Positions 1,999 through 58,031 of a stretch of 64,000 nt of DNA are shown here, one piece after another. Within the stretch, counting starts at the first letter, position 1. Every line of letters begins with the position of its first letter. Origin of the DNA: a virus; the IMG/VR virus record IMGVR_UViG_3300033984_000293, positions 62,001 to 126,000 of that record. One strand, written 5' to 3'. Below the pieces are notes generated by a model, which was not told where the DNA came from, did not search any database, and saw nothing but the letters and a program-made list of their open reading frames with translations. A program made the translations under genes and the position numbers.

Positions 1999-2882
1999 GG
2001 CTTAATACGATGAGAATACTCGTCTTATTGAGAATCTTCGGAAGGATTATTGTTTCCCTTCTTTTCCACCATCTTTTGAATGGTAATCCTCATTGCCGAT
2101 TGGTTAGACCAATCACTCCTTAAGATATCATTTACTCTCTCATTATTCAACTCTCTTTAACCTTGCGAGCTAACTCCGGATTCGACTCCGTAGAGGTTTT
2201 TGGCGAGAATACATTCAGACTTGCGGTCATCCTGTGCAACGAACAGCTCGTTACTATGTAGGCAACTTGTCAATGATACCTGACAGACACTTTTGCTTTT
2301 TTCTGTTTAGTTTTTCACCATATTGAAAATAGTTATTGTGTTGTGGATGTGTCCAAGTAGAGGTCTGTCTTAGGCTTCATCATCTTTTGGACGAAGAAAT
2401 ACCAACCTACTCGGTAGAGCGTCCCCACTCTCATATTTTAAGAATTCTTCGAATCAAAATCTTGGTAGATGTTTGATAAGGATAATGACAGCACCACCTG
2501 TTACTTATCTTGTCTTTCGACTTTAAGATTTCTCTCATATTGGAACCCGTAATAATTAAGTTGGATAACCTAACTTCTTACTTGATTCCTATCACTTATT
2601 CCTATTGGAGTTCCCCCCTCAACCGAAAGACCCACATCTCCCGGTCACCTAACCACTTTCTCTAAAGCGTTGCCCTCAATACTGAAGGTCAGATGGTATG
2701 TGACTTGTATACTCGAGTCCCATTTCTGAGACCGCAAACCTGTTAACACAACAGATTCACTTTAGCCCGGTTTCCCGGTTTATTTAAGGATGATATACCA
2801 CCCATTATCGTTTTTTACTCCACCGAAGTGGGTAAAGGATAATCTAAAATTTCTAAGAACGTCTTGAGGTTTCCCTCATTTG
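1970..2882 (-). ncRNA. Large structured non-coding RNA (about 900 nt), GOLLD/ROOL-like candidate
   Basis: No credible ORF fills this interval on either strand. On the minus strand it has a full Bacteroidota promoter just upstream (boxes at 2888-2895 and 2915-2918) and an intrinsic terminator at the far end, so it is a self-contained transcript. It is rich in local hairpins: CCGG-GAAA-CCGG and GTC-GAAA-GAC with GNRA loops, ATTGGT-CTA-ACCAAT, ACCAT-TCAAAAG-ATGGT inside GGATT/AATCC, and CGGA-GTCGAA-TCCG. Length, phage context and position beside tRNA genes fit the GOLLD and ROOL families of large ornate phage RNAs. Family membership is inference only. Confidence 0.6.
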
Positions 2883-3942: not shown

Positions 3943-4019
3943 TAGTCAGAACAGGATTCGAACCTGTGTGTCCACATAAGGGGTTTCCTTACCGTGCATC
4001 TCCAATGTGCTACCTGACT
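3943..4019 (-). tRNA. tRNA-like gene, anticodon not assignable
   Basis: Acceptor AGTCAGG/TCTGACT with A73, D-arm GCA-CATTGGAGA-TGC, and T-arm ACAGG TTCGAAT CCTGT all look genuine. The anticodon region is about five bases too long. Its best fold is GTAAGG-AAACC-CCTTAT with a 5-nt loop, followed by an 8-nt variable segment. No loop placement gives U33. Confidence 0.5.
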
Positions 4020-4261: not shown

Positions 4262-4406
4262 TAGTCAGGACAGGATTCGAACCTGTAAGGTATAACCACT
4301 AAAATCGTGGAGATGGAGGTCAATTCCTCTTTTACAATACCAACCTGTGAGCGTCTACCATCAGGAATTAGCTTTATCAGTGCTACCCTTGTTCCGCCAC
4401 CTGACT
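4262..4406 (-). tRNA. Interrupted tRNA-Leu-like gene (145 nt) with insertions in D and anticodon loops
   Basis: Acceptor AGTCAGG/CCTGACT with A73 and T-arm ACAGG TTCGAAT CCTGT. The D-arm is that of tRNA-Leu (GGCGGAA ... TGGTAGACGC), but about 31 bases intervene, containing TAGC/GCTA pairing. The anticodon side is also expanded by some 40 bases, with GGTAT/ATACC enclosing GAGG-AATTGA-CCTC and CCAC-GATTTTA-GTGG. It is twice normal tRNA length, and the anticodon cannot be read. Confidence 0.5.
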
Positions 4407-15351: not shown

Positions 15352-15444
15352 TAGTCAGGAGAGGAATCGAACCTCTCTACAGGGTGCTACCCGTCATCCG
15401 TGACCTTCCATCGGACTCGAACCGACCTTGTATCCAACCTGACT
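15352..15444 (-). tRNA. tRNA-like gene with two T-arm-like hairpins
   Basis: Acceptor AGTCAGG/CCTGACT with A73, and a true T-arm AGAGG TTCGATT CCTCT at the 3' end. A second hairpin, TCGG-TTCGAGT-CCGA, sits near the D-arm/anticodon position; read as an anticodon arm it would give CGA (Ser). About 33 further bases follow, with GTCA-CGGA-TGAC and ACGGG-TAGCAC-CCTGT. Not a standard cloverleaf. Confidence 0.45.
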
Positions 15445-15569: not shown

Positions 15570-15692
15570 TAGTCAGAACAGGGGTCGAACCTGTAATAAA
15601 AGACAAGCGGTTAGTCCTTTCACAAGGATTAGGGATTATGTCTATTCCCACATTTAACACACCACTGCGTACACCAATTCCGCCACCTGACT
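15570..15692 (-). tRNA. tRNA-Leu-like gene with about 42 nt inserted in the anticodon loop
   Basis: Acceptor AGTCAGG/TCTGACT with A73, a normal Leu-type D-arm (GCGGAATTGGTGTACGC), T-arm ACAGG TTCGACC CCTGT and a 12-nt variable region. The anticodon stem GTGGT/ACCGC encloses 49 bases instead of seven. The insert holds GGGA...TCCC and TCCTT-GTGA-AAGGA, a GNRA-capped hairpin. The mature anticodon cannot be told from sequence. Confidence 0.55.
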
Positions 15693-25040: not shown

Positions 25041-25117
25041 AATTTTACCCCACTTCACCGGCTTAACGGACCGGCTGCCATATGGGAGTGGGGGTTTCCT
25101 GTTGTATCAGGACTCCG

Positions 25118-25189
25118 CGGACTTGGGGAATCACGATATCCCGACCCTTCGCTTAACAGGCGAACGCTCTTCCTCTGAGCTACAAGTCC
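25118..25189 (-). tRNA. tRNA-Asn (GTT) with aberrant T-loop
   Basis: Acceptor GGACTTG/CAAGTCC, G73, D-arm GCTCAGAGGAAGAGC, anticodon stem TTCGC/GCGAA with loop CTGTTAA. The T-arm reads GGGA-TATCGTGAT-TCCC, lacking TTCRA. Confidence 0.85.
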
Positions 25190-57218: not shown

Positions 57219-58031
57219 CTACTTATTTAATAAATCCCAAGCTCTTGCCAATCTTGTTAAACCAATACCAGCACCAAATCTTGGAAAGAAGTCCAAAGAT
57301 AAGAATTCTTCCAATTCTTTTTCCACTCTATCTTTTCCAAATAACTCAAATAACTTGGAAGAATACCCACCACCTTCGATTGAGTAGAACATCTCTCTCA
57401 TTTTAACAACATCACAACTTCTCTCAGCAGAACCAATAGTTTCTTGACCAAAAAGGATTACGTCAACCTTATTGAAGATGTTGTCTGAATCGTGTTTCAT
57501 ATTCCAAAATGGGTTTGTTCTAATTGGAAAGTTTTGTAATGATATAACCTCACTTTTTTCTTTCCACATTCTTGATTCGTGTTCATCTTCTAAAATAGAA
57601 ACATCTCCATATTCTTTACAAACTTGTTCGTAATCTACGGGAACTGGTTCTGAGAAACCTAAATATTGTAATAATTCACGTTCTAATACAAGTAAATGAA
57701 GCATACCACCCTTTGATTCAAATTCAAACATTGGAAAGATTAACTCGTGACGACCCGGAATTGGATTTTTCTCTTCTCTATATGATGTTGAAATACAGAA
57801 CACTCCATCCCACTCAGGATTCTTCAATAATTCCAATTCTAACCACATTTGTCCTGTTTGTGGTAATGGCCAAATTTCACCCCCATATTCAAAGGTTTTT
57901 ACTGAATGTGGGTTTTCACAAGCAGCTAAAATAGATAATCTTGATTGAGTTGGGACCTCAATAAAATTCTTACTAACGAAGAATGTTCTTAATTTTTGTA
58001 CCAGTTCGTGGTAAGTTTTTGTGTTTTTCAT
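57219..58031 (-). CDS. Class II aminoacyl-tRNA synthetase-like protein (AspRS/AsnRS/LysRS type), no anticodon domain
   Basis: 270 aa. Motif 2 is FCISTSYREEKNPIPGRHELIF, with the R...E and R-H-x-x-F pattern; motif 3 is FPRFGAGIGLTRLARAW. LPQTGQMWLELELL matches the class IIb catalytic core. The usual N-terminal OB-fold anticodon-binding domain is absent, so it resembles stand-alone catalytic paralogues. It could aminoacylate another molecule, make an amino-acyl product without tRNA, or act on one of the tRNA-like RNAs. Confidence 0.8.
   Translation of the reverse strand: MKNTKTYHELVQKLRTFFVSKNFIEVPTQSRLSILAACENPHSVKTFEYGGEIWPLPQTGQMWLELELLKNPEWDGVFCISTSYREEKNPIPGRHELIFPMFEFESKGGMLHLLVLERELLQYLGFSEPVPVDYEQVCKEYGDVSILEDEHESRMWKEKSEVISLQNFPIRTNPFWNMKHDSDNIFNKVDVILFGQETIGSAERSCDVVKMREMFYSIEGGGYSSKLFELFGKDRVEKELEEFLSLDFFPRFGAGIGLTRLARAWDLLNK

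Follow-up and report, generated by a model that had tools for sequence, protein, structure and literature searches.

Our analysis of a 64,000-nucleotide stretch of giant-phage DNA (positions 62,001 to 126,000 of IMG/VR record IMGVR_UViG_3300033984_000293, hereafter the window) shows that the AsnRS-like core encoded in it is not a phage speciality, and that cells carry the same gene beside genes of pyrimidine synthesis. A pyrimidine role for this core is well supported by three lines of evidence: the operons in which its gene lies in cells, the pathway steps that are missing from the genomes carrying it, and its association with PyrE in phages. We propose that the core is probably an AsnRS-derived, ATP-dependent enzyme that forms dihydroorotate and so opens the de novo pyrimidine pathway, where it would replace CarAB-PyrB-PyrC. 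To our knowledge, the CarAB-PyrB-PyrC entry to this pathway is treated as near universal.

The gene occupies positions 57219-58031 of the window on the minus strand, where the ORF call gives a real reading frame of 270 aa. The Pfam domain tRNA-synt_2 (D, K, N) spans residues 3-262 of the protein (E=8.5e-13; 48.5 bits, above the gathering cut-off of 25 bits), and the protein matches PHROG 29758, a family of unknown function, at 8e-94. The curated AsnRS model TIGR00457 (15.4 bits against a cut-off of 342.6), the NCBIfam AsnA models (17.2 bits against 389) and the EpmA model (18.2 bits against 286.9) were not passed, and the similarity to EpmA is weak (E 8e-4; 21% identity in the alignment). The AlphaFold2 model has a mean pLDDT of 92.1. 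In a Foldseek search of the PDB with this model, AsnRS and AspRS catalytic domains ranked first (2xgt, E 1.7e-16) and the best two-sided fit was obtained with the archaeal AsnA 3rex (TM 0.73/0.69); AsnRS and AspRS were likewise at the top of the fold search with a marine homologue. The open frame around the gene has 276 codons in all, and the homologues are full length, consist of the core only and have no N-terminal extension, so that an OB-fold has not been missed. These data support the view that the protein belongs with AsnRS and AsnA and consists of a class II core standing on its own. An earlier, sequence-only reading of the window had described a class II core with neither an anticodon-binding domain nor a preceding OB-fold, and had proposed structure prediction to place it among AsnRS, AsnA and EpmA; the domain match, the model and the fold search agree with that description, and the placement falls with AsnRS/AspRS and AsnA, EpmA being only weakly similar.

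Conservation was computed over 245 relatives, from phages and cells, among which about 40 residues are invariant in the phage and cell versions alike, including Cys38, Gln58, Thr59, Gln61, Glu65, Arg85, Glu87, His95, Asp190, Glu197 and Arg204. Class II motif 2 (residues 82-105, TSYREEKNPIPGRHELIFPMFEFE; 57717..57788, minus strand), which holds the invariant Arg85, Glu87 and His95, and motif 3 (residues 251-264, RFGAGIGLTRLARA; 57240..57281, minus strand), in which Arg260 is almost invariant, are intact, as had been read from the sequence, and conserved far beyond chance. Motif 1 is degenerate, with an invariant Gln29 where Pro is usual. The side-chain pocket was compared with E. coli AsnRS, AspRS and EpmA in an alignment whose pocket segment was realigned by eye. 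The segment QTGQMWLE (residues 58-65; 57837..57860, minus strand) resembles SGQLNGE of E. coli AsnRS and not QSPQLFKQ of AspRS, and ETIGSAER (residues 197-204; 57420..57443, minus strand), with the metal-binding Glu197 and the side-chain Arg204, corresponds to GEIIGGSQR of AsnRS. Judged from these two correspondences, the AsnRS side-chain pocket (Gln61, Glu65, Arg204) is retained. The ATP and metal ligands are retained too. The flipping loop of AsnRS and AspRS is replaced by the signature SILAACENP (residues 33-41; 57909..57935, minus strand), SILAACE(N/D)P across the family, in which Cys38 is invariant and Glu39 aligns, in the alignment to 2xgt, with the flipping-loop Glu of AsnRS. In human AsnRS, E279 touches the Asn moiety (PMC10831071), and on our reading of the alignment Glu39 may be its equivalent. 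The window protein shares with the class IIb AsnRS the catalytic fold, the motif 2 and 3 arginines, the metal-binding Asp190 and Glu197 and the Gln61-Glu65-Arg204 pocket, and differs from it in having no OB-fold, in the SILAACE(N/D)P loop, in the Gln of motif 1 and in its pyrimidine context.

Among annotated phages, relatives occur in giant metagenomic phages and in the Prochlorococcus phages P-SSM2, P-SSM5 and P-SSM7, where the protein is called a 'tRNA ligase'. The cyanophage protein, T4-GC 194 or PHROG 29758, belongs to the same family and is 53% identical to the window protein; a type II tRNA(GUU) follows the gene there. T4-GC 194 is listed for P-SSM2 and P-SSM7 (PMC3037559), and no earlier functional interpretation of it was seen in the literature covered. 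At least 591 relatives were detected in IMG/VR with the window protein and at least 597 with the P-SSM2 protein, two sets that may overlap and are not additive. A search of the viral_contigs set with L094 as query returned no loci. Cellular relatives, 53-79% identical, are present in at least 135 genomes of the GTDB scan, and the 80 retained for the analysis span CPR bacteria, DPANN archaea, Chlamydiae, Dependentiae, Rickettsiales, Bacteroidota and Proteobacteria. In a maximum-likelihood tree the freshwater-phage and cyanophage clades are nested at separate places among the cellular sequences, which implies at least two transfers of the gene between cells and phages; the best explanation, we propose, is that phages acquired it from cells on at least two occasions. 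This nesting, with the roughly 40 residues common to phage and cell versions, argues for a single function throughout the family.

What does the cellular neighbourhood tell about this function? When 109 same-strand neighbour proteins were scanned with Pfam, the most frequent families were PyrD, the dihydroorotate dehydrogenase (11), PyrF, the OMP decarboxylase (11), and phosphoribosyltransferases (10), while none of ATCase, dihydroorotase and CPSase was among the 25 families listed. In 25 of 80 cellular loci, pyrD, pyrE or pyrF lies within about 5 kb of the gene, a frequency with a chance probability of <1e-12 in a simple random-placement model, and the identities of representative pyrE, pyrF and pyrD genes were confirmed with NCBIfam. 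The linked loci belong to Bacteroidota, Gamma-, Alpha- and Deltaproteobacteria, Chlamydiae, Dependentiae and CPR, and examples of their gene order are pyrD-pyrEF-gene in Chitinophaga-like MAGs (L656, L674), gene-pyrE-pyrF in Gammaproteobacteria (L672, L675, L678, L713) and gene-pyrF in Alphaproteobacteria and Midichloriaceae (L702, L706, L709), with both pyrD and pyrEF adjoining the gene in Aureispira (L712). Other arrangements were also seen. The argininosuccinate lyase gene argH is directly upstream in L641, L642, L699 and L703, the last of which also has an amidohydrolase and a possible pyrE by the gene. In Patescibacteria (L652, L658, L660, L669, L673, L685, L701, L703) dus and dnaX flank the gene in a conserved order, with a tRNA-Gln downstream in most of these loci.

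The genomes that carry the gene are poor in the steps that precede PyrD. In a survey of 48 gene-bearing genomes, in which several of the cellular ones are incomplete MAGs, PyrB was over the cut-off in 4 and CarB in 3, compared with 14/14 for each in controls that were not family-matched. PyrC passed in 2/48 with TIGR00857 (multi type) and in 0/48 with TIGR00856 (dimer type), with relatives below the cut-off in several Bacteroidota. The 16 searched genomes with pyrD, pyrE or pyrF beside the gene had no PyrB over the cut-off, and 13 of them had no PyrB match at all; 13 were also without CarB and 12 without PyrC. Large genomes were part of the survey; one of them, the 7.4-Mb genome of Aureispira sp. 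CCB-QB1, has no PyrB match and no CarB over the cut-off, and contains a dihydroorotase-like protein below the cut-off. Further points temper this pattern: many CPR and DPANN genomes may be without pyrimidine synthesis altogether, and two Coatesbacteria hold PyrB, PyrC and the AsnRS-like core together, which counts against replacement.

A pyrimidine link was also found in marine phages. PyrE (TIGR00336, over the cut-off) is encoded 0.2-4 kb from the gene, upstream or downstream, in several marine contigs. Among 50,697 phage records, compared with at least 447 that have gp23 and come from cyanophages, the only cyanophage isolates with this PyrE are the three with the gene, namely P-SSM2, P-SSM5 and P-SSM7; P-SSM2 and P-SSM5 are one species, so that the pairing rests on two lineages, and by our tally none of five further weak PyrE matches is from a cyanophage. 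The pyrE gene is a recognised cyanophage gene (PMC9983427), and as far as could be seen its pairing with the AsnRS-like core has not been described previously. No pyrD, pyrE or pyrF was found in the window phage or in the freshwater phages related to it, and the freshwater phages have no consistent conserved neighbours of the gene, only scattered chaperones and phosphoesterases. Other products encoded in the window, between positions 289 and 63674, are an Hsp70, SmpB, an FKBP isomerase, a protein with a SET domain and one that matches Tad6, a type I Thoeris inhibitor.

We infer the substrates, the reaction and the benefit to the phage from this combination of pocket, chemistry and context. The enzyme would bind L-asparagine in the old AsnRS pocket and take up bicarbonate or CO2 as a carbamate on the alpha-amine of Asn; ATP would then adenylate the carbamate, as a class II core does a carboxylate, and the side-chain amide nitrogen would close the ring, so that the net reaction would be Asn + HCO3- + ATP -> dihydroorotate + AMP + PPi in one step. 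Since the N3-C4 bond of dihydroorotate is already present in L-Asn, only C2 must be added between its two nitrogens. Dethiobiotin synthetase, which converts an amine, CO2 and ATP to a cyclic urea, is a chemical precedent. In cells, the dihydroorotate would be handed to PyrD, PyrE and PyrF; in phages, it would push the host PyrD-E-F branch past the feedback-controlled CarAB and PyrB steps. Such a reaction would account at once for the AsnRS pocket and the ATP chemistry, for the fact that CarB, PyrB and PyrC are lost, and for the association with PyrD, PyrE and PyrF. The proposed product is that of the CarAB-PyrB-PyrC route (the CAD steps), in which three or four enzymes act; here a single unrelated one would do so with no carbamoyl phosphate. 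We give about even odds to this full version, in which one AsnRS-derived enzyme using Asn, bicarbonate and ATP is an unrecognised route to dihydroorotate in bacteria, archaea and phages, replacing CPSase, ATCase and dihydroorotase, and in which cyanophages and giant phages would carry the same route as a pyrimidine auxiliary metabolic gene. A search of the literature outside subscription journals found no dihydroorotate-forming AsnRS-like enzyme and no CAD-less pathway.

The sequence-only reading had regarded a dedicated charging or modifying role as attractive in view of the odd tRNAs of the window, and had pointed out that free-standing class II cores often take non-tRNA substrates. It is partly supported: a non-tRNA substrate, at which it hinted, agrees best with our data, whereas a dedicated role for the odd tRNAs is not supported. 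No tRNA lies near the window gene, and the 465-kb relative genome G016, which carries the gene, yielded seven tRNAs, none of them for Asn. In the tRNA-Asn of the window (25117-25189, minus strand; also in L122, L131, L136 and L257) the G53-C61 pair of the T-arm is replaced by a U53.U61 mismatch or bulge. This T-arm is seen in other gene-bearing phages too, but at least 119 IMG/VR stretches have it, so that it is widespread among phages independently of the gene, which is found in 1 of 48 contigs with the odd T-arm tRNA-Asn and in 0 of 35 with a normal tRNA-Asn, so a dedicated odd tRNA-Asn for the enzyme was dropped. Also rejected as partners were the tRNA-like RNAs of the AGTCAGG type (15570-15692, 15352-15444, 4262-4406 and 3943-4019, all on the minus strand), a family that is also common in phages without the gene. 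These RNAs (AGTCAGG ... ACAGGTTCGAATCCTGTCCTGACTA) occur in several copies per phage genome, also in L077, L122, L126, L131, L278 and L294, and have a nearly constant acceptor stem and T-arm, an often Leu-like D-arm, and a variable body of 75-150 nt that mostly has no proper anticodon arm. A GOLLD RNA (Rfam RF02032, 306 bits; 2007-2414, minus strand) lies near the tRNA-like elements. Two freshwater phages with the gene have a tRNA-Asn with a long variable arm (L127 5265-5350, L133 3380-3462), and their Lys, Trp and Thr tRNAs are also of unusual length.

In the marine phages the situation is different, and the pyrimidine reading does not account for it. A type II tRNA(GUU) starts within about 100 nt after the stop codon of the gene at 75/75 loci with room for it (L001 8785-8870, L002 8799-8884, L176-L255), and conversely the gene is directly upstream of this tRNA in 103/103 cases with upstream sequence, with no orphan copy. 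Its fold is under selection (100% paired, with 73 double-change cells indicating compensatory changes), and its U1-A72 pair and G73 are those of E. coli tRNA-Asn; CCA is not encoded. The core might therefore be a minimal AsnRS that charges Asn onto a phage tRNA needing no anticodon-binding domain, and elsewhere onto the resident tRNA-Asn. The strict linkage, the kept fold of the tRNA and the AsnRS-like pocket keep this explanation alive, at a lower probability, and we regard it as unlikely. Bases 34-37 are GUUU in all 15 aligned marine tRNAs, so that position 37 is an invariant U and not a purine, and with its type II arm and G73 the tRNA might even be suited to SerRS. Searches with a covariance model built on the marine tRNA gave no partner next to the freshwater-phage genes or in 50 cellular loci; the linked odd tRNA exists only in the marine cyanophage clade, and is unlikely to be needed for an activity shared by the whole family. 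In addition, G016 has no detected tRNA-Asn, a bona fide AsnRS may already be present (over the cut-off in 18/48 gene-bearing genomes), and charging would leave the pyrD/E/F linkage, the missing PyrB and CarB and the phage PyrE match unexplained.

Archaeal AsnA (3p8t/3rex), likewise a free-standing AsnRS-derived core of about 270-290 aa, is the closest such core of known structure, and its equal domain content and similar fold, with the weak NCBIfam asparagine synthetase A matches, would suit an enzyme that makes Asn from Asp, NH3 and ATP. We consider this very unlikely: identity is only about 20%, the Asp-binding Lys of AspRS is replaced in the window family by the Glu of AsnRS, and Asn_synthase (PF00733) is over the cut-off in 30/48 gene-bearing genomes, some of these being short ATPase-domain matches. 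An AsnA activity would predict neither the pyrimidine operons nor the loss of CarB, PyrB and PyrC, and it is PyrB and CarB, rather than Asn synthesis, that the gene-bearing genomes are without. HisZ, a regulatory HisRS-like protein that partners HisG, is a precedent for an aaRS core recruited into a biosynthetic operon, and the presence of the gene in pyrDEF operons and beside phage PyrE would fit an auxiliary subunit of this type, for example for PyrE or PyrD. Such a subunit would not take the place of CarB, PyrB and PyrC, and the ATP and metal residues, invariant or nearly so in the 245 relatives, point to catalysis, which makes a regulatory role highly improbable. EpmA/PoxA, the EF-P lysine ligase, is also a class II core that stands alone, and its target is not a tRNA, but its pocket is of the LysRS type and that of the window protein of the AsnRS type.

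What would a dihydroorotate-forming core mean for these organisms? If true, it would be a new entry to the pyrimidine pathway, in which a single AsnRS-derived enzyme stands in for CarAB-PyrB-PyrC, and it would add one more reaction to the jobs adopted by tRNA-synthetase cores. It would explain how several genomes that have no PyrB, those of symbionts, CPR and free-living organisms, could nevertheless make use of PyrD-E-F. For the phages, it would assign a role to a gene that stands unannotated in hundreds of contigs, and would provide a bypass of the feedback-controlled steps in the nucleotide synthesis of their hosts.
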